From contig NZGL01000017.1 in NCBI GenBank assembly GCA_002690945.1, forward strand, positions 11,879 through 43,996: a stretch of 32,118 bases of DNA, written 5' to 3'. Numbering within the stretch: position 1 is the first letter of the stretch; the number at the start of each line of letters is the position of its first letter. Source of the stretch: Gammaproteobacteria bacterium. GTDB taxonomy: Bacteria > Pseudomonadota > Gammaproteobacteria > Magnimaribacterales > TMED112. The notes beneath the pieces were generated by a model. The model worked only from the letters and a program-made list of their open reading frames with translations, did no database searches and was not told where the DNA came from. Below, one piece after another: positions 1 through 23,900 of the stretch. The position numbers and the translations under genes were made by a program.

Positions 1-415
1 TAACATCTTTAACATTTTTATAAAGTCTACCATATGGTTCATAAATCATTTGGCAGCAGGCTCTCAGATCTCCATTAGAAAATGTGCTTAAATGATTCCA
101 CGGAATTGGGCAAAATGTATCACTAAATGGTTGAACTTTTTTTAGATTATTGTTTATTTTTTCTCTTTCATCGTCTACTAACACATTACTATTCATTAAT
201 TCTTTCAATATTAATGGTGTGTTAATAAATTCTTTGTTAAGACTATTATACACTTCTTTGTCAAAATTAGGATTTTTGATTATGTTATGAATTACCATTT
301 CGTCTACATCCGGTGATAACCACATTAATATATCTTTATTTTTTGTTTGTAAAGCCAGATTCGCCCGTTCATTGGGGTTGGCCATGTTTATACTTTTAAT
401 TTCTTCTGGTATCAT
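1..415 (-). CDS. Radical SAM/twitch-type protein, N-terminal part (cut by the left edge)
   Basis: An open frame of 138 codons runs leftward from the ATG at 413-415 off the window. Its start overlaps the stop of the preceding gene in an ATGA arrangement (412-415), which implies translational coupling. Residues about 10-95 are helical and contain a stretch with alternating NP-x-R and L-x-x-L-S-x-D-x-D-E patterns followed by NPN, reminiscent of leucine-rich-variant or HEAT-like repeats. After residue 100 there is FCPIPWNHLS, then GDLRACCQM about ten residues later. This Cys-Pro...Cys-Cys signature resembles the N-terminus of the 482-residue protein two genes upstream and of phage proteins annotated as twitch-domain radical SAM proteins. 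The CX3CX2C motif expected further on would lie outside the window, so the radical SAM assignment is inferred from this homology and from context. Confidence 0.72.
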   Translation of the reverse strand, partial: MIPEEIKSINMANPNERANLALQTKNKDILMWLSPDVDEMVIHNIIKNPNFDKEVYNSLNKEFINTPLILKELMNSNVLVDDEREKINNNLKKVQPFSDTFCPIPWNHLSTFSNGDLRACCQMIYEPYGRLYKNVKDV

Positions 416-1887
416 TGATTTTTAAAAAATTCTAATTCTGATGGGGAATAATCTGCTAGACCTTCTTCTTCTCGAGTCCATGAAGACAATCGTATAGGAA
501 CTAAACTACAACATCCTTTCATTCTACCATTTTTGCCAGGCTTTTCTAACTCTTTAATATTTAGTTTTTCCTTAAATTTTAAAGCATAGTCTAACCATCC
601 CGGCGGTGTCATTAATTTTATCTCGACCCAATGATCGTCGTCGTTATTATTATGCCAGTCTAATACTAGATTTACATTTTTTATAAATCTATCTTCGTGT
701 CTATTAAACTTAGCCATACTTTCAAAGTGGGCCGAAAATAAAACAGAATTACAATATTTTCGTAATTCTTTCCAATAATTATTGTCTCGAGAACCATTTG
801 TTGTTAACATAACCCATTGATTTTTTTCTTTTAAAAATTTAACAATGTCTAAAAAATTAGGATGCAAGGTTGGTTCTCCGCCTCCGAAGCTCCATCGAAT
901 TTCTTTTTCTTTAGACCAATTTTTTATAATATATGTTATGGTCTTTTTTATAGCCACAAAATCATGATGCGATGCTGTAGGACTATGAACATCGGGCCAA
1001 CAATAATTACAGTTATAATTACATCGTTTTCCTATATCCCATAAAATTTGAAATGGTACTGGAAAATTTAACTCTATTGCAACTGGTTCTTGTATATCAG
1101 GAGAATAATTATTCCTTGTCCGAAATTGTCCTTTTTCTGCTTCTCGACTTACTGCAAGATGTAAAAATTTAAATGGAGGATCATTAACAAATTTACTTTC
1201 TTTAGCTTTACTTATATTAATATCTGCTCCACACCCACAATATTCATATGGACATTTAACCCAATATCTAGGCAATTTTATTTCATTATAAATATCTCCG
1301 CAATAACCAAAATTATCAGGATTGGGTTTTTTAAAAGAAAAATTTTTTCTATCTACTTGTACCCAGTCTCTTAACTTTAAAAAATTATTATTATCGATTT
1401 CTTCTTTAGAGCACAATCCTCTATCTAACAGAAATTTCTGTAAATATTCTGTTTCAACCTTACTTCGTTCTATTTCAAATATTTTTATTGCCTTTTTCTT
1501 TTGCTCATAATCCTGCTCATTTGCCATATGAAGATCATGCTTTGTAAACCAGTCACGATGGGGCCATGGTCCAAAACAATCTTTTATATGTCTGACAAGT
1601 CCGGCTTTGTATTCGTCACCTATTAACCCATATCGACGACCTAATCTATTATGATGTTCTCCTTTTTCTTTAAAATAATTACTACTAGAACAATTACTAA
1701 TCCAAACACAACCATTATAATCAATATATAAAGATCGTTCCCCTGCAGAACAATACCAATTTTTCCAATAATTAATTTTATTTGCTATTAGCTCGTCCGG
1801 ACTTAATCTTGTAAAAAGACCTGATTTATCATAAACTCGAAGTTGTTTATTACCAAGAGGTACAAGATTATCAGATTTTATTGGCAT
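412..1887 (-). CDS. Radical SAM protein with permuted order: Cys-rich twitch-like domain first, radical SAM barrel last
   Basis: This 491-residue protein has a canonical radical SAM motif, CNYNCNYC (Cys289, 293, 296), followed by GGGEPT near residue 335, so it should bind a 4Fe-4S cluster and S-adenosylmethionine. The barrel occupies about 270-491. The first 228 residues are a Cys-rich auxiliary-cluster-like domain: Cys46, Cys60, Cys66, Cys196, Cys212, Cys217 and Cys219. They align with the C-terminal domain of the 330-residue radical SAM protein encoded two genes upstream (IANK-x-N-x-W-x-x-W-x-C, then a Cys 20 residues later, then YNEIKLP and C-x4-C-x-C). About 110 residues, roughly 75-190, are inserted within that domain. 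The barrel ends where the homologous barrel of the neighbour would lead into its C-terminal domain. The ATG at 1887 overlaps the upstream gene by 17 bases. The substrate is unknown. Confidence 0.85.
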   Translation of the reverse strand: MPIKSDNLVPLGNKQLRVYDKSGLFTRLSPDELIANKINYWKNWYCSAGERSLYIDYNGCVWISNCSSSNYFKEKGEHHNRLGRRYGLIGDEYKAGLVRHIKDCFGPWPHRDWFTKHDLHMANEQDYEQKKKAIKIFEIERSKVETEYLQKFLLDRGLCSKEEIDNNNFLKLRDWVQVDRKNFSFKKPNPDNFGYCGDIYNEIKLPRYWVKCPYEYCGCGADINISKAKESKFVNDPPFKFLHLAVSREAEKGQFRTRNNYSPDIQEPVAIELNFPVPFQILWDIGKRCNYNCNYCWPDVHSPTASHHDFVAIKKTITYIIKNWSKEKEIRWSFGGGEPTLHPNFLDIVKFLKEKNQWVMLTTNGSRDNNYWKELRKYCNSVLFSAHFESMAKFNRHEDRFIKNVNLVLDWHNNNDDDHWVEIKLMTPPGWLDYALKFKEKLNIKELEKPGKNGRMKGCCSLVPIRLSSWTREEEGLADYSPSELEFFKNQ

Positions 1888-3316
1888 AATTTATAATTTG
1901 ATTAAAATATCCATATGTATCTATAGAATGGATACTTTGTTTTCGTATTTTATCTAATGTCTTTGTTCGTGCTACAAATGCCTTAAGGGGATGCATTTTT
2001 CCTTCTGCTTGTTTTTTATATCTTTCAGGGTAGTCTTCATATTTTTTACATAAGTCTGTCATCATAGCTCTTAAATTATGAGGTTCAGAAATCATACCAT
2101 TATCAATTGTGGGTTCCATTTTTATTTGATCAAGTCTATTTAAAATTTTTTTAGATATCTCCTGTCTCATTTCAAACGGCAAGTGATAAGGATTGAGATC
2201 CATGTTCTCAACAAACTGAAAAGAAACTTTGCTTCTTATAAAAAAATCATTTTCTTCATAAAAATCTAAAAGATCAGGAACTGAAAAAATACTTAAAATG
2301 CTAACTGTAGATATTATTGTTGTTGTAGTTTTACCTGTTTCGCTCTCTATTTTTGTTGCTGTCATATCCCTATATTTTTTATAATTATTATGAATTTTTT
2401 CAAAAGATCCTTGGGGTATACCTCTTATATATTCATGCACTTTTCCCGGAGCGTCTATGCTTATATTAATTGGAACTCTGCCTACATTACTGAACTGGGT
2501 CATTAATTTATCATTTAATACCAAAGCATTTGTTGTAATTTTTAAAATTAAATATTTTTTAAATTCATATTTTGATAATTTTTCCATCATATTGAAAAAT
2601 GCAGGAGTAACTGTAGGTTCACCTCCTATAATACCCCATTCTAAATATAATCCGTTTTCCGATATATGTTCTAACATATCAAGATTATTCTCTAATTCAT
2701 TCATATAGTTATCGATAGATGAATCTTCTATCCAATTTAAACTTTTTTTGTTATATTCTAACCAATGTGGTTTGTTTTCAATTTCTAAAGATCCTGCTCC
2801 TAAATTATATTCTCCAGATGCCCATGCCCATTCTTCCTCTCTTATTTCTTCTAAATTATCTATAAACTCATTTGCCAATAAACTAGATACTAATGGAAAA
2901 CACATTCTACATTTCATATTACATGCATTTCCTACTCTAAATTCTACTCGCATAGGTAATTTTATATTCTCTGATCCCTCTATTGAAGGTATAATACGGT
3001 TATAAAACTTATGTTTTCTTGGTTTACTAGTCATAGACCTTAACGAAACAGTACCTCTATCTTCCTCTCGTTTACATCTAGCACATTCTTTTGGCCATTT
3101 ACCTTTTAGAAAAGTTTCTCGAACTTTTTGCATTCTAGGTGATGATCTATATGTTTCTGATATATCAAAATTAGGTGCTACTTCTTCTCTATTAGGCATA
3201 ACTTCTTCAACACAACATATCTTTACAGTTCTATCATACCATAAAACCATTTCCTGAAATGGTCTAGGACAAAAAGAATCCGGATACTTATCTAAATAAT
3301 CATTAATAGTTTTCAT
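1871..3316 (-). CDS. Radical SAM protein with N-terminal twitch-type cysteines
   Basis: The radical SAM motif is CNMKCRMC (Cys132, 136, 139 counting from the ATG at 3316), with IGGEPT near 229-234 as the SAM-binding GGE motif. Ahead of the barrel lie FCPRPF (Cys16), the pair Cys34-Cys35, and C-x-x-C (Cys78, Cys81). This N-terminal arrangement resembles the phage proteins usually annotated as twitch-domain-containing radical SAM proteins. The protein is expected to be a cytoplasmic SAM-dependent radical enzyme, possibly with an auxiliary Fe-S cluster. An in-frame TTG at 3319 precedes the ATG directly; I chose the ATG. It overlaps the upstream 330-residue gene by 14 bases and the downstream 491-residue gene by 17, so the genes are probably co-translated. 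The substrate could be a peptide or a sugar; neither can be read from sequence. Confidence 0.88.
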   Translation of the reverse strand: MKTINDYLDKYPDSFCPRPFQEMVLWYDRTVKICCVEEVMPNREEVAPNFDISETYRSSPRMQKVRETFLKGKWPKECARCKREEDRGTVSLRSMTSKPRKHKFYNRIIPSIEGSENIKLPMRVEFRVGNACNMKCRMCFPLVSSLLANEFIDNLEEIREEEWAWASGEYNLGAGSLEIENKPHWLEYNKKSLNWIEDSSIDNYMNELENNLDMLEHISENGLYLEWGIIGGEPTVTPAFFNMMEKLSKYEFKKYLILKITTNALVLNDKLMTQFSNVGRVPINISIDAPGKVHEYIRGIPQGSFEKIHNNYKKYRDMTATKIESETGKTTTTIISTVSILSIFSVPDLLDFYEENDFFIRSKVSFQFVENMDLNPYHLPFEMRQEISKKILNRLDQIKMEPTIDNGMISEPHNLRAMMTDLCKKYEDYPERYKKQAEGKMHPLKAFVARTKTLDKIRKQSIHSIDTYGYFNQIINYANKI

Positions 3317-4295
3317 CAATATTTTCCTTTTTACACATTATATCAAAATTACAATGACAAAATGTTTTAGTACACCTAACTGGTTTGTAAGGTAATTTAA
3401 TTTCGTTATAAACATTTCCTAATGACCCACCTTCTCTACACCAACCTCTCCATACTTCGCCATCCCAATCTATTACTAAATTTTCTAACCCTGCATAGCA
3501 ATCCCAATCTGACCAGTCATTAACTTTATTTGCAATTAGCCTATGTGCCGAACTTATCTCTTTTTTATTTGTATTTGTGTTTATCATTTCCATTGCTCCT
3601 CGAGGCACTGGAAAATTTGTATTCCATTTTATATGTTTTCCGTATAAGTGATGTTGTCTATCTAATACTTCTTGTTGCTCATCGGTATACGGAAAAACAG
3701 TTTCTTCTTCACCTAAACCTTCCATTAGTGGTTGTAGTGCAAGGCTAATATTATGACATTCTTTAGGTATTCTTTCGGCTAACATAATACACTCATCCCA
3801 TTTATCAGGATTCATCATTATATTTACATGAGTTCTAAATTCTCCATTTACTTCTTTTATTACATTTAAAAATTTTTCTGCATTACTAAATTCAGAATGA
3901 TAACTGAAACATACATGATCGAAATATTGTTTATTTTCTCGCCACCATCTAGGGGGGCGGGTTCCATTACTAATAATACCAACAGTGGCATTTTTCTCTT
4001 TTATAAATTTTGCCAATGGTATCAAATCTTTCCATAATGTAACTTCTCCGCCAGTAAATTCAAAATATATTTTCTTAGGAGCATAATGTTTAATAGCACG
4101 AAATATAAATTCCTGTACGTCTTGAACTGACCTAGAAGGCCATTTATGATAATTATTAGGCCATCCTACTTCGCCTTCGTGTAACCAAGAAGGACAATAA
4201 CTACAAGAAAAATTACATTTTGTGCCCAACAACCAATTTACAACTACAATTTCTTTTGCATGATCATGTGAATGATCAAGTATATTATATTCCAA
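3303..4295 (-). CDS. Radical SAM protein with C-terminal twitch/SPASM-like domain
   Basis: The radical SAM motif CNFSCSYC (Cys27, 31, 34) starts the barrel, and TGGEVTLW at 81-88 is the GGE motif. FSYHSE at 130-135 is shared with the 491-residue paralogue as FSAHFE. The C-terminal 80 residues carry Cys266, Cys286, Cys308, Cys313, Cys315 and Cys321, a plausible twitch or SPASM-like auxiliary cluster domain. The domain order, barrel then Cys-rich domain, is the usual one. The start is a TTG at 4293-4295: the frame opens just upstream after a TAA and no ATG occurs before the essential motif, so TTG is the best available start. It overlaps the GT-A-like gene upstream by 11 bases. The residue stretch HSHDHAKE near the start is His-rich, with no assigned role. 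Confidence 0.87.
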   Translation of the reverse strand: MEYNILDHSHDHAKEIVVVNWLLGTKCNFSCSYCPSWLHEGEVGWPNNYHKWPSRSVQDVQEFIFRAIKHYAPKKIYFEFTGGEVTLWKDLIPLAKFIKEKNATVGIISNGTRPPRWWRENKQYFDHVCFSYHSEFSNAEKFLNVIKEVNGEFRTHVNIMMNPDKWDECIMLAERIPKECHNISLALQPLMEGLGEEETVFPYTDEQQEVLDRQHHLYGKHIKWNTNFPVPRGAMEMINTNTNKKEISSAHRLIANKVNDWSDWDCYAGLENLVIDWDGEVWRGWCREGGSLGNVYNEIKLPYKPVRCTKTFCHCNFDIMCKKENIDENY

Positions 4296-5211
4296 TTTGA
4301 TCTTCTCGTATTAAAGGAGCAGTTCTTGTAGGACTTACATATACTTCTTTAAAAAACTTACTATTTTGTGCTTCCATTTCTGCTATAGGTAGTTCTAATT
4401 CATCACGTATTTTATCACCTAAATTATATACTTCATCTAAAAATTTATCTTCATCATGCCCAAACTTTGGAAAAATTTCTGTTTCCCAAAATTCAGTATG
4501 CCATTTAAAATCACGTACAAGAGTATAGTCCCAGTCGGTGGAATTTGTCATCCAACAACCCAACCGAGCACCATATATTGCCCAAAACCCGTTTAGTGCA
4601 TCTGCGCCTACAGTCATCCATACCAATAATCGTTTAAGATTTTTATTATGCAACATTGTTAACGGTTTGTTTTCTAACTTGGAACCTTCGTCTAAACTCA
4701 TTTTTACTCCTTCACGAAACCCTGCTCTAAATGCTTGATATGGAGTAGCGTTATTATGTACATAACTATAAACATTGTTCATTTGGACATAATGTACATC
4801 CCAACAAAATTCTATAAGCGACTTTTTAGATCCCAGTATATTGGATGCTTCATGTGTTCGCATGTTTTCCACTACTTGTTTAGGCCAACATTTTAATCCA
4901 CCATTACCATATACCAAACCATTAACATCATTTTTACCTGACCAACTAATTACCCAATCATCTTCTATTTTATCTGTATCAATTTCTGCACCAAAGAAAT
5001 CAGGATCAACAATATTATCTGCATCAACTCCAACCCATCTGTCAGTTTCGGATAACGCTGATGCAGCTTTATGTGCAGCATCACTACCGAATACTCCATG
5101 TGATCGTTTTGCCCAAGGACACTTACTTTGTAAGTCTGCGAAATTTGTATTAGCATTAGGTTCATCGTACGAGATGAATATAATATCTAGTTCAGTTACC
5201 GGTATTTTCAT
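4285..5211 (-). CDS. GT-A-fold glycosyltransferase-like protein
   Basis: The 308-residue protein starts with a beta-strand segment, LDIIFISYDEPNA (8-20), followed by HGVFGSDAAHKAA (38-50) and RWVGVDADNIVDPDF (58-72). The last contains a DxD motif (Asp63, Asp65), the usual metal and nucleotide-sugar ligand of GT-A glycosyltransferases. Proteins of this pattern (DEPNA, HG...AHKAA, DxDN) are frequent in marine T4-like phages, usually as hypothetical or glycosyltransferase-like proteins. It lies between an unknown protein and a radical SAM gene with short overlaps on both sides (20 and 11 bases), which suggests one pathway. The donor sugar and acceptor are unknown. No signal peptide or membrane segment is visible, so it should act in the cytoplasm. 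Confidence 0.72.
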   Translation of the reverse strand: MKIPVTELDIIFISYDEPNANTNFADLQSKCPWAKRSHGVFGSDAAHKAASALSETDRWVGVDADNIVDPDFFGAEIDTDKIEDDWVISWSGKNDVNGLVYGNGGLKCWPKQVVENMRTHEASNILGSKKSLIEFCWDVHYVQMNNVYSYVHNNATPYQAFRAGFREGVKMSLDEGSKLENKPLTMLHNKNLKRLLVWMTVGADALNGFWAIYGARLGCWMTNSTDWDYTLVRDFKWHTEFWETEIFPKFGHDEDKFLDEVYNLGDKIRDELELPIAEMEAQNSKFFKEVYVSPTRTAPLIREDQIGI

Positions 5212-6070
5212 ATTTTATTTTTAATTGATTATTATTGCAATGGGTAGTTTTATTTGTTAATATAGCACCATATGGTTTATTAAAAGATAAAGTTTCGTTC
5301 TTTTTTAATTGGTTTAAAGTAAAAGATATATAATGTTCTAATTTAGTAGGATTATTTTTATCAACAAAACTAATTACAATTTTATCATTTAACATATGTT
5401 CAAATTCTTGCCAATATCTAATATTATTAGTTACAATAATAGTATTTGATAATCTATCATATACATTATGTAAGACATATAATTCTAAATGATACTGATT
5501 ATCTATTAAGTTTCTATCTAAAGGTTTTTCTTTTTCTTTAAATTCCATAATCTGATATTCATAGTTTTTAAAACATCGTTTTGTTTTAAAAACTAAATTA
5601 TTAACATCTACGATACTTAAAATTTTTGTAATGTCTTGCTCGTATTTCCCCGTTTTAAAATAATTGTCTAAATCTATTTCTAAGGTACCTAATAATTCTT
5701 GTCGATTTTTAGCATTAACATATATTTGTAATATTGGATTTTCAAATTTAACAAAATCTAATTGTTCATTATCTATAAAATTAATGGGGAAATCTATTTT
5801 TACTTTAATTAAATTATCTTCAGGAAAGATATTTAGTTGAACCGTTCCATTTTTGCCATATTTAATTTCTGTTAAATTACTTTCTTTATTAAATCTTACT
5901 ATATTATCTTTTCTAATTACTTGATTATCGTAAACTATATAATTTTCTAAACCATGTTTTATAAATTGATTAATATCATCAACTGATACTGATATCGAAT
6001 AATTTGATGGTTCAAGAGAATGTCCTGTTACCTCTCTAGACCATTTATTATAATGTATGTATTTCTGCAT
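5192..6070 (-). CDS. Unrecognised 292-residue protein inside the glycosyltransferase cassette
   Basis: I do not recognise this protein. It has no Cys-rich motif, DxD motif, signal peptide or membrane helix. The sequence is rich in Ile, Asn and Lys, with many short alternating hydrophobic patterns, for example in residues 75-130, which suggests a mainly beta fold. The start ATG at 6070 lies inside the 3' end of the GT8-like gene (23-base overlap), and its 3' end overlaps the GT-A-like gene by 20 bases. It is therefore embedded in the coupled cassette and probably serves the same pathway, perhaps as a binding or scaffolding partner, but this is only inference from position. Confidence 0.7.
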   Translation of the reverse strand: MQKYIHYNKWSREVTGHSLEPSNYSISVSVDDINQFIKHGLENYIVYDNQVIRKDNIVRFNKESNLTEIKYGKNGTVQLNIFPEDNLIKVKIDFPINFIDNEQLDFVKFENPILQIYVNAKNRQELLGTLEIDLDNYFKTGKYEQDITKILSIVDVNNLVFKTKRCFKNYEYQIMEFKEKEKPLDRNLIDNQYHLELYVLHNVYDRLSNTIIVTNNIRYWQEFEHMLNDKIVISFVDKNNPTKLEHYISFTLNQLKKNETLSFNKPYGAILTNKTTHCNNNQLKIKYENTGN

Positions 6071-6797
6071 TTCGATAATGTAATGGATAGTATTGATTAA
6101 AATTTTCTATATAAAAATTAGTCATGTCGCCCCAATAATCTAATTCTTCGCCCCAATTTCTAACATTAGCATTTAAACAAGATAATTTCATATCTATATA
6201 TTTAAAAACATTATTTTTATCATATACAGTATCTTGTATACCTAGCATTTTTATACAAGCCGGAAATATATGGCTGGTTCTAAGTGATGTTGGTCTTTTG
6301 TTAGGGTATATGTTTATACTTATAGATATAAAGTTTTGCATTATTTGTGACAACATATTAAAAAATTCTAATGCTTTGTCACCTTTTTTAAAATAAAACA
6401 TTTTCTCATACGCAGGACGAATTTCATGAGAGGTTAAAATTTTATCGTACTGTTCGTGTTTTATTGTTTCTTGTTTATAATTTATTATTGTGTCAGGAAA
6501 TAATAGATCAAATTTAGACAAATAATCCCACCAATAAGAATAGTCATTTAAAAACAACATATCAGCATCTAATACAATAGTTTCATCATACGGTGTTGCC
6601 CAATATATTTGCCAAAAATTTAATAAATTACTTGTAAATGTATTTTTGCTATATTCTTTTGTAATATCTCCATACGGGAAATTATCTGATATAATTGTTA
6701 CATTATCGTTTGTATGATGTTTTATACTTTTTTTGAGAGTTTGTGCCTTACTAATGTAAGGTTCGTCTACTGCATATATTAAATAACCTTTAGACAT
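6048..6797 (-). CDS. GT8-like glycosyltransferase
   Basis: The 249-residue protein opens with GYLIYAVDEPYISKAQTLKK, the typical first strand of retaining GT-A enzymes. It has ETIVLDADMLFL at 72-83 with the DxD motif at Asp77-Asp79. FWQIYWATPYDETIVLDADM resembles the family-8 layout in which an aromatic segment precedes the catalytic DxD. This supports a nucleotide-sugar-dependent transferase that should act in the cytoplasm. The ATG at 6797 overlaps the last codons of the preceding GT8-like gene by 8 bases. It is paralogous in layout to that neighbour, with its own distinct C-terminal half. The sugar and acceptor are unknown; family 8 is a pattern-based guess. Confidence 0.75.
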   Translation of the reverse strand: MSKGYLIYAVDEPYISKAQTLKKSIKHHTNDNVTIISDNFPYGDITKEYSKNTFTSNLLNFWQIYWATPYDETIVLDADMLFLNDYSYWWDYLSKFDLLFPDTIINYKQETIKHEQYDKILTSHEIRPAYEKMFYFKKGDKALEFFNMLSQIMQNFISISINIYPNKRPTSLRTSHIFPACIKMLGIQDTVYDKNNVFKYIDMKLSCLNANVRNWGEELDYWGDMTNFYIENFNQYYPLHYRNAEIHTL

Positions 6798-7734
6798 ATA
6801 GCTCCATTAATTCATCATAGTGTCTTTCAATAGCACGTTTATTCATCATATGTAAATTTTCGCCTTCACTATAAGTTAAAATATTTTTCCATTCTTCTTT
6901 TTGGTCATTTGCAAAAAATATAATACCATCTTTAGTTACACTATCAATGTCATCTTTATATGCCATATATTTCATAGGTGTTCCTGGTAATTCTGCAAAG
7001 ACATCATCAACACAATCATAAAAAGATTTTAATAAATGCATACTAATACTAACTGCAAAATCTGTCCTATATAATCCTTCAGGAAATTTATACAAAGATT
7101 GATAGTATTCATAATTTTCTTTCACGTGTGCCCACATATTAAAAAACAGTTTAGATTCAACTGATTTGTTGAAATATATAACAGTGGACCAATATAACGG
7201 AATGCTTACATCGTTTAATCTTTTGTCAAAAATATGGTCTGGTTCTGCATTTTTTAATGTGTGTGCATTTTTGTATAATTGTATAGGGGAAGCAATATTA
7301 AATGCTAAGTTTAATATATTATTATTAACAAGATAATCTACATCAAATAATATAGTTTGATCGTACGGAGACAAATCAAAAACTTCGTGTTTATTTAAAT
7401 TATTAAATTGTGCTTTATATCTAGCATAAGGTGTGTCGTAATAGTTACGAATATTTTCTGTAGAATCTGTTTTTTCGTATACTTTAACATCATCAAATAT
7501 ACCAGAAGAATATAAATTAGCATCAGAATATGCCAACGAACCGCTATCTGTAATCATCATACATGATAAATTTAAGTGTTTTTTTACGGAAGTAGCACTT
7601 AAACATGCTAATTTAACATAATCTAATTGTTCATTATTGTACGCAAAAAAAATTGCGCCTTTTTTATTGGATGTTGACAAGGGACCTGATTCCTCTTGCT
7701 TTTCGTATTTTTTCGTATCCTTGGAAGTGTTCAT
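6790..7734 (-). CDS. GT8-like glycosyltransferase
   Basis: From the ATG at 7734 the protein is 314 residues. It contains KGAIFFAYNNEQLDYVKLA near residue 25, a first beta strand and helix of GT-A type, and DQTILFDVDYLVNNN around 125-139 with a DxD motif at Asp131-Asp133. A later segment, DVSIPLYWSTVIYFNKS, fits an acceptor-site region in GT8-type enzymes. The frame remains open to a TTG at 7761, with ATGs at 7749, 7743 and 7734. All of these overlap the 3' end of the 116-residue gene (by 71 bases from 7734), and no clear ribosome binding site singles out one of them. A short overlap would require a non-ATG start such as the TTG near 7680. The start is therefore uncertain; the body of the gene is not. 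Confidence 0.76.
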   Translation of the reverse strand: MNTSKDTKKYEKQEESGPLSTSNKKGAIFFAYNNEQLDYVKLACLSATSVKKHLNLSCMMITDSGSLAYSDANLYSSGIFDDVKVYEKTDSTENIRNYYDTPYARYKAQFNNLNKHEVFDLSPYDQTILFDVDYLVNNNILNLAFNIASPIQLYKNAHTLKNAEPDHIFDKRLNDVSIPLYWSTVIYFNKSVESKLFFNMWAHVKENYEYYQSLYKFPEGLYRTDFAVSISMHLLKSFYDCVDDVFAELPGTPMKYMAYKDDIDSVTKDGIIFFANDQKEEWKNILTYSEGENLHMMNKRAIERHYDELMELYV

Positions 7735-8014
7735 TTTTTGCATTTGCATATGTGTAAACAATATTTTCTAAAAAGTCGTTTGGATCGTCTATTTTAACAG
7801 GATTACCATTAACATCATCTACAACAAATTCTGAATACTCTAAATCAATCATAGTTTTAGTTAATGCAATAAGCTGTTCTGTTGTTCTAATAAGTCTGTC
7901 TCTGTATGTTAGAAGTTTTAGGTCTTCTACTTTTGAAAATAATGTCTGTTGTTGGTTGTAAAGGGTTTGTCTAAAGTTTGAAAAGTCTAATGCTTTTTCT
8001 AATTTACTATCCAT
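7664..8014 (-). CDS. Conserved T4-like phage small protein, probably tail-associated
   Basis: The 116-residue, mainly helical protein starts FSNFRQTLYNQQQTLFSK near residue 11 after a short lead. It has the central segment VDDVNGNPVKIDDPNDFLEN (66-85) and ends with a basic KIRKARGIRSLV motif. This pattern (a helix, a D-x-NGNPVKI turn, and a terminal K-x-RKAR) resembles a small protein found next to tail genes in marine T4-like phages, remembered but not searched. The ATG at 8014 follows a strong Shine-Dalgarno AAGGAG. It lies 11 bases after the stop of the 556-residue structural gene, so it belongs at the end of the virion block. Its function is unknown; a virion or assembly role is inferred from position. 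Confidence 0.72.
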   Translation of the reverse strand: MDSKLEKALDFSNFRQTLYNQQQTLFSKVEDLKLLTYRDRLIRTTEQLIALTKTMIDLEYSEFVVDDVNGNPVKIDDPNDFLENIVYTYANAKNEHFQGYEKIRKARGIRSLVNIQ

Positions 8015-14950: not shown

Positions 14951-14958
14951 TATTTATA
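14951..14958 (-). promoter_or_regulatory. Putative T4-type late promoter TATAAATA
   Basis: The minus strand reads TATAAATA, the exact T4 late-promoter core, starting at 14958 and overlapping the TAA stop of the giant protein gene (14954-14956). It lies 19 bases ahead of the ATG at 14931, giving a short leader that includes AAGGT. Orientation and distance fit transcription of the 210-residue protein and the fibre genes beyond it. In such an AT-rich genome chance matches are possible. Confidence 0.5.
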
Positions 14959-17900
14959 TGGTTCCTTTTGTCACAGCTAAGCCTTGTATTGGACTAGTAC
15001 CAGCAATAGTAGTATTAGCTGAAGGATTAAACGCCGGATAACCTAACGGATCTGTTGCTAATGTTAAGTTCATATCAGTACCTGCTTTTACAACAGAAGC
15101 AGAATTTGCATGTGCTTGTGGAGTTGTACCATCGACTCCTCGTGTGCATCCTGTTAATGTATTTGTTGATACTCCTGTAAATGTAATTCTTTCAGATCCT
15201 ATAACTATTGTACCTGTATTTCCTGTTTCTTTAACTGCACTTGCCGAAGTTACCGGAATAGACGTTGCAGTTGCCGTAATTGCACTAGTTAATGTTGTTT
15301 TTTTAGTATTAATAATAGCTTCATATTTTCTTGTACCTGCATCTGTAATAAAAATTCTAAAAGCTCTAGATGCAGCGGCTTCTGTACTACCACTTGTGTT
15401 TGTTTGCACTCGTATATCTAATACTTCTGTTGCAGTAGTTTTAGATTCTTCTATTATGGTTCTAGCATCTGCAATAGTTTCTATTTTACTATGATACGGT
15501 TTTGTATCATTTAAAAATTCTAAAATATCATCTTCACTACCTATATCAAATGTTTTAGGTGTTAAATTTAATGGTGTACTTCTTGTTAATTGTAGCACAG
15601 ATGATTTTGCAATCCAATCTATGTTTTCCTGTTCACTATAAATATATCTTATCATCGCAAAGAAAAATTCTTTGTAAAATGATTGATATGCTCCAACAAA
15701 TACATCCAATCGTAATGCATCTAAAATATTTAAAAATTCATTATTATAATTTTTATCCCAGCCGGTTATGTCCCATTCTACGGCATCCCAGCCTCCATCT
15801 TCGTCATTAATATTATACAATGTTTCTTTAATTTGTATAGTACCATTTTGTTTACCAGTTTTTAACCATTGGTTAGATACCCACTGATAAAATGCCCATG
15901 CTCCTGCTCCGTCGTCGTCATCTACTCTTACAGTTGTATACAATGATGTGTTTACATCGTATAATTCATTTCTTGTGTTTACTGTTTGTTGAGTAACTGT
16001 AGATGAATTAATAGTATAATCAGGACGGAACCAGTCGGCATATACCCAATAATCTTGAGGTGTGTATGTAGTATTGCCCTTATTAAATGTTCCACCTAAT
16101 CTTTTTCTCCAATTAAGTTGAGAATCGCTTAAATTTATTGTTAATAATAATTCATTTACTTTTTGTACTACAACTCGTATTGCTTTTAATCTATCTTTAA
16201 TTAAACTTTGTTTATATGGACGTATTTGACTACCATATCTAAATAATTCATTTAATCTTAAATCTGGCACTCTGTTAGGAGCTTCATATGATATTGTATT
16301 ATCATTCAAATATTCATATGTTCCTGTTAATAATTGAGTCCATGGTTGTCTGGAAAAGTTTCCTATTTCATTAAATGAGGCAAACTGATCATGAGCAACA
16401 ATCGTAGAAGCAGTAGTAGTTACAGGATGATTGGTGCCTCTTGTAACTAGTAATCTATCTCCTGTTGATACATTTGTAAATTCAATATCATCAACAAAAA
16501 TTATTACATCACTACTAGGTGAAGATTGTAAATCTATTTTTAAAAATACGGATTGATATCTATCACTTTGTGCAACTACCTCTAATTGAAGGCCGTATAA
16601 TTCATTTGCAGCAACCGATGTTATAGCAATGGTGTCGCTGGTCTCTACTGTAAATCCTGAAAAATTAGTTTGAGACGAACTTGCATGTCCGTACGATAAT
16701 GTCGCAGATCCTGATCCTGACCAAGCAGAAGAAGATCTAAATTTAATCTTAATTAAATGTTTTACACCAGCAGTTATACCTGCATACGCAGGTAATGTTA
16801 TGTCTATTTTTTGTCCTACATATCCAACTTGTGTACCAGATGATATAGTAAATTTACCAGAATATGTTCCGTTTAATACTTCACCACTAGTTGATGTAAT
16901 CGCTAATGCACCTGCTTGTGTAGACCAATAAGTTGTTGCATTGGTATTAAAATCAAAATTTTGTAAGTAATTAGTATCAGACAAAAATTTTTCAGTTGCA
17001 TAACGATCATAATATTTTAATTCTACAACTTCGTTTACTATTTTTGCATATGATTGAACATAACCTGATCCTTTTCTTGCGGCATTCATTGTTATAGCAG
17101 TAATAGAACCATTAGTTAACGTAACGTCTGCATCTATAACAGTTGCTCTAGTACCTGTCGAAGTTTCGGGATATGAAATGTATACACTTGGTTTAGATTG
17201 ATATCCTGAGCCGCCTCGAACTATTGTAATACTATCAATTACTCCTCCTACTATATTTGGAAAAGCAAATGCAGTAATATCTTCTAGAGGTAATCCTAAA
17301 GTATTACCTACCGGTGGATCTATTGTAACAACAGCTCCAAAAGTTAAATTATTTGCTATTGGACTTATTCTTATTTCAGGATAATGTTTTGCCCAATGAC
17401 TAGTAGAAGTTAATGCATTTCCTGTATTGCTATTTGCAAGTGAAATATATTGTATTTTATTTGTAGCATCATTTACTATGGCATCTTTTGCATATGTTGT
17501 TCCGCCGGCGTAATTAGCAATAGTAGGCAAACTTAACATTAATCTTGCCGATTCTAATTCTATTGATATTGCATTATTATGCAAATTACCACTATAAGAA
17601 ACAACAGAATTGGCTGGGTATTCTAAATCTCCGCTCCAATTATATGATACTGTATTAATACTACCACCGACTGCTGTTTCTTGTCCGACTAATCCTAATG
17701 TTGTTTTTGTTTGATCGAATCCCAATATACTTTCGTGCATTCTGTTTGCTAATATTCTAGGAACAACCGAACTATCATTTTCTCTTAGTGTTAGCCATTC
17801 TTTATGTGTTTGTCCGACACTATTTGTAAAATTAATTTGAACTGTTGAATTTTTATTAAGAATTTTTTCTAAATTACCGCTTATTAAACTCGATGTACCT

Positions 17901-20900
17901 GCAGGAGATGCCCAAAAAATTCCCGACTCTGTAGGATTATCTATGTATTGTGCAACTTCTAATACACTAAAATTTCTATATGGGTTTGATTTAGGTACTG
18001 TTCTTTTATTTTTAACCCAAAAATAATAGTATGTAACTTCAGTACCTGTATAAGGATTATATTCTGTATCTTGGGACCAATAATAATATATTTGATCATC
18101 TATAATTTTATAATATGCTTCACCTGATGCTACTTCACCATCTATAACAAATTCACCATTTGCTAAAGTAGACCATTCGTCTGGAGTAACTGTACTTTTA
18201 GTCCATTCGTAAATATCTATACTCGATCCTGGAAATTTTGCTCCCCAATTTTTAAACGAATAGTCTAAATCTAATTTTTGTTCATAGTCCAAATATCTTA
18301 CAGTAGATAAATCCCACCATGTTTCACCAACTTTTTCTTTATCCCAATATCTTTCATCAACAACTTCTTTAGTTTCTTCTGTTGAATTGCTATATAATGC
18401 TTGATCATATCTAGTAGAAGAATCTATTTCAACTTCTGCTACTCCGGGTATAATGCCTTTAAATGGGTCCCAAACTTCTGCCTTACCTAATTCTTTATTA
18501 TCAATATAATCATATATTAAAACATTTGATATTTGATTTGAATCGGTTTTTGTTTGTTGTTGTCTTTTTACAGACCAATTTGTGTTAGATAAATCATATG
18601 AATAAACACCATAACCTAAACCTGTTGTGTTCTTAAATACAATTTCTAACGGTTGCCCGATAACCCATTGTGATATATTAGTTGGTGTAAATGTTATAGT
18701 TGTGCCTGAAACTGTCCATGCAACACTTCCTCCTGTTGATGCAGGCAACAGAGTTCTACCAGTTCCTATATAAACAGTTATGTCGCTGGCACTTGATACT
18801 GAATATGATAGTGTATATGCAGTTTGTTCAATTCCTGAACTAAGATACTGGCCACCTGTTGTTGTAGTATCTGATTGATATTTTAATGTTAAAGATTGTA
18901 CTCTATAATAAGAATCTGCATATGCAACCCAACCATCATTCCAAGCATATTTTGAATCTGTTACTGCATTATATAAATCATCTGTGCCTAAAAATCTGTG
19001 CGATCTAATAACAAAACATTTACAATATTGTTCATTTACTGCAATATATTGATCTATATAAAACTGCTTGTCGCTTCTTGAACCACAAGTAGCACAATCA
19101 GAACCGCTCGGAAAACCAGTTACTTTATGTATACCATTTAATCCTGCATTATTTTCCGCACCTACTATAAAAACATAATCACCAATACTTAAAGAATGAG
19201 ATTGATTTAATTTTACTAATGCTTCGTTTCCAGTATCATACCCTGGACAAACCAATTCAACATCAAGATTCTTATCATGCAACCCTACTACATCCCAACT
19301 TTGAGTATTTTCATCATCTGCAAACCAAGCAGTAAATAACCCATTCTCTGATACTGCTGTCCAAGGATTAGGATCGCTCGAACTTGCTCTATATTGAAAT
19401 GCTGAAATATAAATAAAGTCATTATCTGCAGGTAACTTACTATATGGCACAGCAGTAGGACCAAATGTAAATGCATATGTGTATTCACCTAATCCATCTA
19501 CTTTTGTATTAGTACTATCTCTAGATTGCATAGGATAATATGTTGTATTAAAATCACCTATTCTAACTTCTACTCCTAAATTACTAGTAGCAAATGGATC
19601 TGTTGCGGCAGTTAATTTTGTAGTGTTATCATATGAAAATACACACTTGTCTATATGTAATCCTGCAACATATAAATCTCCCGTCTTTGTCCAAAATCCT
19701 GTTTCAGTAGAAGGATTTTTATTTAAATTATTAGCCGTAGTTGTTGCTTTATATTCTGCTCCTTCATATACAACATAATCTGGATTAGTAGAAGAATTGT
19801 CCGTTCCATCATAAGCAAAATTAGCATTCCATGTAGGAAAGTCGTTATGTGAGCTACCTGCTACTCCGACTGCTACCCATTTAGTTGCATCTGTTCCTGG
19901 TGTTACATTTGAAAATGAACTTGCAATAGATCTATAATTTGTAGTTGTACCAGAATCTGTATGAGATACATAAGCATTAATACCATATGTTGTACCGTTA
20001 TTGTATGCGGTAAAAACAGTAGATGAATAATATGTAGTTCTAAGAGCATTGTTAATACCCCTAAAACTTTGTTTAGCAGATGTTATTACAGAGTTAGTCC
20101 ATCTTTGTCCTTTATGCCGTACAAAAGATCCGATAGCATATGATCTATTATCTCTCCATCCGTCTGTTTGTGTTAAATTATATATACTTGAGAGAGCTCC
20201 TTGATCTTTAACATCTTTGTATGTGTCATACAGTTTAGGTAAATCTTTCTTATTAAACATAGTATAAGTAACTTCGTCTAATTTAAGATAACCTGCATTG
20301 GGTAAATTTTTCTCGTCAGTTTCTATTTCTTCAAAATTAGATAAATCTCTATCTAAAGATCCTTGTGTAAAAGATATAGGAGGATCATTTGCCGGTTCTT
20401 CTAACCATCTAGAATCACCTTTTAACATACTAATCGTAGCATCGTAATCTATATCTCTGGCTTGGCCTGAAAATATAGCATCAAATCGAATTAATTGAGG
20501 ATTTGTTTTGATGTCGCTTTGTTTTAAAGTAAATTCTTGTGTTTGCTGAGTAGGTAAAGGACCAAACTCTCCTAACCTAAACATCCATTCTTCTTCTAAG
20601 TCAATATCAACACTTGATTCTAATAAAAATGTACTTCGTATTAATCGATTAAAACTTTCTGGCGTTCCTTTTTTATGAAGTAGTCCTTTCATAAATTGAA
20701 ATTGCACATCATCGGATAATCGCATATTACGCAAGAACTGTTTCTTCTCATACCCAATATTTTTTCTTGCAACCCCTGACAGATTTGAATCTGTTAAGTG
20801 CTGGGTTTCATCAAATAATTCATAATTTACATTTGATACCGACTTATCAAAATTTTCAAATATTGTATCGTTGTTGACTATGTATCCAGGTGCATAAAAT

Positions 20901-23900
20901 GTGCCGTTCCAATTGGATGTTTTTTGATAATCTATTTTTAATCTTAATTTTTCTTCGCCTAATAACGGAGAATAAACTATATCATTAAAAATTGTTGTAT
21001 TATCTAGTATCAATAGATGTTCGTAATCACAAACAACTAATATAGCACAATAAATTGCTTTATCATCATTTTTGCATTTTACAGTAACTTCTTTATACTG
21101 TCTATCTACACTTATCTCTGAAAGATTTAATAAATTTTTATCTTTATCTAAATATGCACTACCATATTCATCTTCATTATTTTTTAAATAACCATGAGCT
21201 AATGTTAAAGTCATGGATTTACCAACAGGACTTAATTGTACCGATGTATTAACATCCCAATTTGATTCTGCCCATATTACGAATTGATTAGCTGCAAAAT
21301 TCCAATTTTGTATATTATTATTTGCATCAACATTATTAAAAACGAAACCAACCGATTCTAAATATTTTTCATATTCTAACAGAAACCAATAAACATCCTG
21401 TATATTATTAAATGTAGTTCCATAATTAACTTTTACAGGAGATGTTCCGTAATTAACATATCTAATTAAATTTGTTTTTCCTATTGTTACTGCTCTTCCT
21501 GAAACCTTTACAGAAGGTAATACATTAAAATATGGTTCGTTGTTATGCCAACCATTAATTGTATACCCAGTCGACGATTTAATAATTTCTACTCCACTAT
21601 AAACTATTTTTTTATACGGAGATGACTTATGTAATTTTAATGAAATATTATCTGCTGGTATAAAATTATCAGATAGTTCTGATTGTAGACTATCTGCTAA
21701 TAATGATATATTATTTTTATTAGAATAGCCTTGTATTTTATACATTTGTTTTGAATTTAACTGTCGTATTTGTCTAGCAAAATCTTTATAAATTTCATTA
21801 CCTAGAAACATCAATCTATCAACCATTAATTGTTGAATTCCTAAAACTCTTCGGGTTAAATTGGTTGTGTCTACTTCATTATGAATGTATAATTCATTTG
21901 TATTATGTCGTTTTTTTGTTTTTTCAGATATTTTTTGTAATTCGTGCTTACTATCTACTATTTCAATTATACCTCCCATGCCTGAATGATTACCACAAGA
22001 ATAATATAACTGACTTATAGCAGTACCTTTAGGTATTATTAATTGTGTATATCTGTCACCTGTGTTATTTGATTTAAAACTTTGTTCATAATTAGAAGAA
22101 CCGGCAAATGTATTATAATCAGTTGAACCTATTTTCCAAACTTGTTGTGTTCCTTGGCTATATATAGAACCTTCAGTATCCCTTATTGTAGTAAGGTACA
22201 ACGGATGATTACTAGTGTATGTTAATGACCCGGCATTACTTGAATCTGTTTGATCAAAAATATATGTTTTACCTTGTTCTAATTTTAAAGTTTTCTGTGG
22301 GATTCCGTCTATGTAAAATCGATTCTGGGTTCCGTCATTTGCTACTGTTACTTTCAAGGTAGTTGAAGCATCAGGTCCATCGTTTATTTTATCTAAAACA
22401 TCATAATTGTCTTCTAAATATTTTCCAGGATTAGAAGAATGTAAAAATTTATTTTCTACATAAGGGAAGATTGAACTACGCAACCATACAGTTTCTATAG
22501 GACTTCCGTCACCAAATTTAAACGCAGCTTTTGCTTCGTTGGCAGTAGGAGAAGTAAGACTCCATGTATCTGGATCTTGTAACGTAACAGTTGCATCGGT
22601 TCCTCCTGCTGTACCGGCGCCTGTAACAGGAAAGGTTGCACCAGGTCTAGCAACATTTATATCCTGTATTATTGTCGTTGTAGGTTCGGATATAATTCCT
22701 TTTTGTAATGCAGATTCTAATGCGGCTTTTTTTGTTGCGTTTGCCCAACAATTATCATTTGTAGTTTTAGTTGTGGGACTACCATATCTTGCATCCCACC
22801 AACTAGGTTTTTCGACAAAACCTAACATTTCCCAAGGATGTGTATGTGGTCTATCTGTATCAAAATAATGTCTATAAATACCTCTCCAATATCCTATACC
22901 TTCTGACTGTGTTGATGAGTAATTATGTGTAAATTTATTATTAGCATCATACGAACTATTTGTTAATGTTGTAATACCTTTACTAACCCTATATGAATTA
23001 AAATAATTATCATAAAAATTATTTTGCTCAGTTTTTGTATAAGGTGTGGTTCTATATTTTCCGGGTATATAAGTTAAATCTTTTCTTTTATTTTTAAAGG
23101 AAGATTGTATATGATCGTATATTCTATTTTCTAATTCAAACAATGCTTTATCTCTAACATCTGTTAAAGAAGGAGTTAAGTCACTGTCTACAGTTGTATT
23201 AAACGAAACCGTTTTAGAACCATCGTGGCCTTCTATAATAACAACTTGCCTAGAACCTGTATTATCTAAATAATATGTAGGTTTAATACACGATGTAATA
23301 CCTAACTTCGTTAATGTAGGTGGTATAAAACTTAATCCTTGATCAATGCTAACTTTTATAACAACTTTACCTGAACTGACTGCACTATTCAATGTAATTT
23401 TATTAGTTGTTGATGTAGTATCTAATGTATATAGATCACTTGTTAAATATGTTTCAACCCCGTTAGTATCAATGGTATAGACATATACATGATTTTTATA
23501 TTGATTAGTTCTTGTAATATTTCTAGGTAAATTAAAATTAGACGTACTACTAGAAACACTATATGTTTTTTCAACCAAGTTAAAATAGTACATCATATCA
23601 CTATTTGCAAATGGAAATGTATTATTCTTACCTAAATTAATATCATAAAGAGCTTGATCAATTAATCCGCTAATAGTAGGACTTGACGCCATGCTTTTGT
23701 TTAATTGTTCTATTTTTTGAACAAATTTTTTCTTAAAAACATTATAAGAATCAGATACATATTCCAATGCTAATAATACATCGTAATCTTCGTTACTTAA
23801 TGTAAAACCTGTTTTTAATAATGAAGATAATTGTTGATTTATTATTCCACCAAATCGTTTTGTTTTATCTAAATTTCTATAATTATTAGAACCAAAAGAA

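Follow-up and report, generated by a model that had tools for sequence, protein, structure and literature searches.

In the window (the whole 32,118-nucleotide stretch of DNA analysed here, part of a 44-kb contig of a 1.17-Mb MAG), the 491-residue radical SAM protein p491 carries its Cys-rich domain before the barrel, the reverse of the order found in the canonical radical SAM protein p330 encoded close by, and this swapped order is confirmed. Taken as one joint statement with the working, origin and role proposed below, p491 is on balance probably a member of a previously unnamed, conserved radical SAM family with an auxiliary-cluster (SPASM/twitch-like) domain ahead of the barrel. The permuted proteins form an old family, present in both phages and bacteria, whose members often lie next to p330 without descending from it. 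The features of the two proteins are:

412..1887, minus strand: p491, permuted radical SAM protein of 491 aa, Cys domain then barrel (ORF; Pfam Radical_SAM, 3e-12; two domain HMMs)
1690..1848, minus strand: p491 Cys domain, first half, residues 14-66, SPASM/twitch-like and N-terminal (BLASTP, family alignment, AlphaFold, hhalign)
1318..1689, minus strand: p491 helical insert inside the Cys domain, about residues 67-190 (AlphaFold secondary structure; family alignment)
1192..1317, minus strand: p491 Cys domain, second half, residues 191-232 (BLASTP, family alignment, hhalign)
415..1062, minus strand: p491 radical SAM barrel, residues 276-491 (Pfam, HMMs, family alignment, AlphaFold, hhalign)
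3303..4295, minus strand: p330, canonical radical SAM protein of 330 aa, barrel then Cys domain (ORF, Pfam, family alignment, AlphaFold)
3654-4253, minus strand: p330 barrel, residues 15-214
3327-3593, minus strand: p330 Cys domain, residues 235-323

p491 belongs to the radical SAM superfamily (PF04055), with a Pfam score of 47.4 bits against a cutoff of 29.5. Its barrel harbors C289-x3-C293-x2-C296, GGEPT (336-340), NG (364-365) and S-x-H (385-387), and C289/C293/C296 and G336-G337-E338 are invariant in the alignment of its family. The first half of the Cys domain comprises strands 16-19 and 25-28, helix 30-35, W44-x-C46 and C66, while the second half contains G-x-IYNEIKLP, C212-x4-C217-x-C219, D222 and K227. 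The helical insert between them (~120 residues) is missing from the compact relatives of 312-360 aa.

Homology between the two proteins can be followed domain by domain. BLASTP aligns p491 to p330 in three pieces that stand in permuted order, one from the barrel (283-389 with 21-135, 1e-16) and two from the Cys domain (29-66 with 249-286, 5e-8; 194-227 with 290-323, 2e-6). Comparing a profile of permuted proteins only with one of p330-type proteins only, hhalign gave 99.7% probability for the Cys domain (E 6e-26, 94 columns) and 100% for the barrel (E 4.5e-44), against 0.3-5.5% when the permuted Cys domain was compared with its own barrel, a glycosyltransferase family or the N-Twi domain as controls. 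The putative auxiliary-cluster domain of p491 is thus homologous to the C-terminal domain of a canonical barrel-Cys enzyme. AlphaFold models agree: that of p491 (pLDDT 81.3) contains the barrel and, in the Cys domain, strands 52-55 and 60-62 after the first half, then the insert, strand 195-198 and helix 220-223, and that of p330 (pLDDT 88.8) has strands 235-239 and 244-248, helix 250-255, strands 272-275, 280-282 and 291-294, and helix 316-319, that is, the same order of secondary-structure elements. Foldseek returned good matches of p491 only over barrel-sized regions and was uninformative on the permutation.

An earlier note on this DNA had proposed, from the letters and ORFs, that p491 is circularly permuted relative to its neighbour, and most of its description holds: both ORFs are present as given, the reversed order is borne out by BLASTP, profile-profile comparison and AlphaFold secondary structure, p491 being a circular permutant of p330 in the sense of the same two domains reversed, and the predicted folds match where a mismatch had been envisaged as a reason for doubt. 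The shared C46/C66 and C266/C286, YNEIKLP and C-x4-C-x-C were found as described, and the permuted enzyme retains all radical SAM and cluster motifs. The proposed line-up of the C-terminus of p491 with the end of the p330 barrel is sound as well, Y480 of p491 and Y203 of p330 varying little or not at all within their families. The spacing of exactly 20 residues between the first two Cys is correct for this pair but is not a family constant, as the second Cys lies at G-x4-C or G-x6-C in other members.

The earlier note had suggested looking for the same order among phage proteins. Separate HMMs for the barrel half and the Cys half of p330 orthologues were run over all ORFs of the retrieved loci, then in wider scans, and yielded 68 distinct proteins with the Cys domain before the barrel, from contigs of uncultured phages and from genomes of Bdellovibrionota, some of them near-copies of each other. 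They range from 274 to 494 aa (the shortest is clipped by its contig end), and W-x-C...C and C-x4-C-x-C are kept in all 68. An assembly or annotation artefact, which might be suspected since p491 comes from a single MAG contig, is ruled out by so many same-order homologues in independent phage and bacterial assemblies; we regard its probability as practically nil. A p330-type gene lies directly upstream on the same strand for 30 of the 68 permuted genes, and the ends of such pairs often overlap or nearly touch; in the window, another gene, p482, stands between the two.

A genome-contig search with the p491 sequence alone gave no match, and a profile scan of genome contigs retrieved the Bdellovibrionota members. 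These occur in genomes of 3-4 Mb, on contigs bearing housekeeping genes (nuo, obgE/rplU, gcv, metG or pheS/pheT-like neighbours, by sequence reading), and many have such surroundings without an obvious glycan cluster, a point that counts against the overall reading; the enzyme can therefore exist with neither phage nor p330 partner. Their distribution is sporadic: at E <= 1e-45, 4 of 129 genomes gave a hit in one order, and 11 of 144 in one class. In cultured phages, tblastn with p491, p330 and one compact permuted protein found no match among 50,697 records.

Does p491 simply belong to a family that is already known? SPASM/twitch domains are C-terminal extensions in textbooks, and the textbook SPASM pattern has seven Cys. 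p491 shares with SPASM/twitch enzymes (BlsE, SuiB, MoaA and YydG being structural or sequence neighbours) the radical SAM barrel, CX3CX2C and a Cys-rich domain with conserved Cys spacing, but its Cys domain is N-terminal instead of C-terminal to the barrel, its family pattern, C-x12-G-x(4 or 6)-C ... C-x4-C-x-C, differs from that of the textbook, and the Pfam SPASM model matches neither p491 nor p330 at E up to 1. The best NCBIfam match of the p491 barrel, viperin_w_prok (NF038283, 5.5e-16), reflects barrel similarity: at 58.6 bits against a cutoff of 180, and over only about 105 barrel residues, it falls short of membership. Two neighbours of p491 have a comparable domain order:

1871..3319, minus strand: p482, N_Twi_rSAM member between p330 and p491 (NF033640, 219 bits against a cutoff of 170)
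1..415, minus strand: first part of another N-Twi-type radical SAM protein (536 aa, L012:10683-12293), whose gene shares 4 bases with the stop end of p491 and runs beyond the window

Members of N_Twi_rSAM (NCBIfam NF033640), such as p482, occur in the same genomic clusters and likewise have a Cys-cluster domain before the barrel, so that p491 could be taken for one more of them, with nothing new about it. Against NF033640, however, p491 scores 27 bits (cutoff 170), matching on the barrel only, and its N-terminal domain is unrelated to theirs by profile comparison (hhalign, 1.9% probability), so we reject this assignment as very improbable. In LipA and the MTTases (MiaB/RimO), the ligands of the auxiliary cluster are also N-terminal to the barrel, ahead of it in the chain as in p491, but they lie in different domains, and we know of no homologous C-terminal version of those domains. 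What is already known is the N-terminal twitch order, catalogued as N_Twi_rSAM, and the N-terminal auxiliary clusters of LipA and MTTases; what is new, as far as searches could tell, is that a single lineage has a homologous domain at either end of the chain and also as a protein of its own. No description of circular permutation, N-terminal SPASM or phage radical SAM clusters was found in the searchable (non-subscription) literature.

How did the order come to be reversed? The earlier note favoured tandem duplication of the neighbouring p330 gene followed by loss of the outer halves, and it is here that it fails. The AU test rejects a group uniting permuted and p330-type barrels (p-AU 0.00375 in a 46-row tree, 3.6e-5 in a 53-row tree), so p330 is not the parent of p491 by barrel descent: p491 did not arise by duplication and rearrangement of p330, and its two halves do not both come from the p330 gene lineage. 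A barrel tree placed 33 permuted proteins in one group with one long-branch intruder (support 92/87) and grouped permuted with split enzymes (83/83). The permuted group was supported at 100/97 in the 46-row tree with 15 core permuted members, and its monophyly at only 55/69 in the 53-row tree that includes the two longest branches, where the permuted and split grouping received 72/50. Permuted barrels thus fall, with weak support, beside a group that contains split enzymes, an arrangement that the AU test does not reject (p-AU 0.263, 46-row tree).

In these split enzymes, a barrel gene (225-250 aa, ~230) is accompanied by a separate Cys-domain gene (95-133 aa, ~110), in phages as well as in bacteria. 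Separate genes of unrelated ancestry had been named as a reason to abandon the permutation, whereas the parts found here are related to those of p491. The split and tandem relatives are:

L108:5908-7013, L110:5938-7088, L208:3904-4858, L212:8001-9034, L221:8807-9851, L236:7950-8986, also L109: split pairs, adjacent genes with short overlaps
L216:8783-10464, L222:7995-10091: split pairs with one or two intervening genes
L115:3081-4781: fused tandem barrel-Cys-barrel-Cys protein, Omnitrophota MAG
L111:5959-7926: fused barrel-Cys-degenerate middle-Cys protein with the second Cys domain at its end, Oligoflexia MAG

A permuted gene and a split pair are both present at L208, L216 and L221. As relatives exist with one gene for each domain, a fission and later re-fusion in reverse order, the simplest route and the one we prefer, would be at least as likely as duplication from another ancestor, the direction of change being inferred. 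The Cys domain would first have become a small protein of its own that works in trans, the state of the present split relatives, and a single later fusion would have put it ahead of a barrel before the family spread among phages and Bdellovibrionota. The split state may itself be derived in several places instead of ancestral.

Two other routes have to be weighed against fission and re-fusion. A true circular permutation, in which one radical SAM gene, p330 or close kin, was duplicated in tandem and lost its outer halves, can point to the barrel-Cys-barrel-Cys fusion at L115 and to the related arrangement at L111, which show that such tandems exist in the superfamily; the AU rejection given above and the lack of any barrel-Cys-barrel intermediate among the phage loci nevertheless make it quite unlikely, a duplication from some ancestor other than p330 being possible. 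The main rival is a chimera without any single-gene permutation, in which the Cys domain of one paralogue, perhaps p330-type, was fused before the barrel of another within a tandem radical SAM cluster. The adjacent p330-type and permuted genes indeed read barrel-Cys then Cys-barrel, and a 105-row Cys-domain tree joins permuted and p330-type domains (84/84), whereas the barrel tree puts the permuted proteins elsewhere. Another Cys-domain tree places the permuted domains differently, however, and for this domain of about 100 columns the AU test rejects neither the p330 nor the split group as their sister, so that the chimera stands as a possible but rather doubtful origin. Returning to fission and re-fusion, we tentatively propose, with somewhat less than even confidence, that a single lineage uses one auxiliary-cluster domain in three states, at the C-terminus, at the N-terminus and as a free-standing subunit in trans, that the form with the domain in front is a natural permutation reached by this route, and that stand-alone Cys subunits might serve more than one barrel.

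As for the working of the enzyme, the barrel would cleave SAM at the CX3CX2C [4Fe-4S] cluster, while the Cys domain, in its new place, would dock on the barrel and hold an auxiliary cluster as in p330, so that the order of the chain would change the connection and not the chemistry. Does an auxiliary cluster need a fixed covalent position, and does domain order matter? The family offers a natural experiment on these questions, as well as a domain permutation that can be traced, possibly with intermediates still living.

The baseplate protein of the window is closest to those of jumbo phages, e.g., Agrobacterium phage Atu_ph07 and Salicola phage SCTP-2, and the contig is for this reason most likely the tail region of an uncultured jumbo-like myovirus. 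A 3942-aa ORF (window 14954-26782) lies between the baseplate and tail genes. Over dozens of contigs, a recurring gene order is observed (tail gene, small protein, GTc, GTb, GTa, p330-type, permuted, N-Twi), and the sugar-related genes are:

4285..5211, minus strand: GTa308, putative DxD glycosyltransferase-like protein
6048..6797, minus strand: GTb249, GT8/glycogenin-like (PDB profile match to glycogenin, 1.3e-6, joint GTb/GTc profile)
6790..7761, minus strand: GTc323, GT8/glycogenin-like (same joint profile match; conserved gene order)
L094:1405-4230, L082:4330-6936, L077:4672-6936, L090:4126-6942: fusions of GTa and p330-type enzymes (754-941 aa)
L012:1-10686: sugar/glycan-type gene cluster left of the window on the same phage contig

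GTa308 had no match in Pfam and PDB profile searches; its homologue is fused in front of a p330-type enzyme in seven phage contigs. The cluster at L012 encodes a carbamoyltransferase, a CMP-sugar synthase-like cytidylyltransferase, a HAD/nucleotidyltransferase, a B12-type radical SAM protein, a 2OG oxygenase and Sulfotransfer_2 proteins, one of them just under the family cutoff. This gene context suggests glycan decoration, and a sugar or glycan substrate is favoured because of the GT8-like glycosyltransferases, the GTa fusions, the sugar-type genes on the contig and the fold match to BlsE, a sugar-nucleoside radical SAM enzyme that is the best PDB fold match of both the p491 and p330 models. 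Together with the paired canonical enzyme and the glycosyltransferases, p491 would modify a phage-made sugar or glycan, probably on the tail or virion.

Alternatively, the target of the enzymes could be a peptide, for instance a protein of the tail fibre or a RiPP-like precursor. Peptides are the substrates of most SPASM enzymes studied so far. The best PDB match of the p330 profile is the peptide epimerase YydG (1e-11), and the cluster adjoins large tail genes. RiPP examples of SPASM enzymes are reviewed in PMC11002830. Yet the surroundings are rich in sugar enzymes and glycosyltransferase fusions, and no precursor-peptide gene was noticed, though no search was aimed at one, so that we see a peptide substrate as the less probable option, albeit one to be kept in mind. 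Whatever the substrate, these loci draw attention to uncultured jumbo-like phages as carriers of conserved gene clusters that combine canonical, permuted, split and N-twitch radical SAM enzymes.

Finally, on a Bacteriovoracaceae MAG contig, two permuted genes lie in tandem (L100:6001-8030), adjoining N-Twi-type radical SAM genes. Another contig of the window's MAG, C3, encodes a divergent permuted protein whose N-terminus bears a MORN-like repeat (L013:5252-6595); IMG/VR contigs (L015-L017) contain copies 83-84% identical to it, so that C3 is phage-like too.
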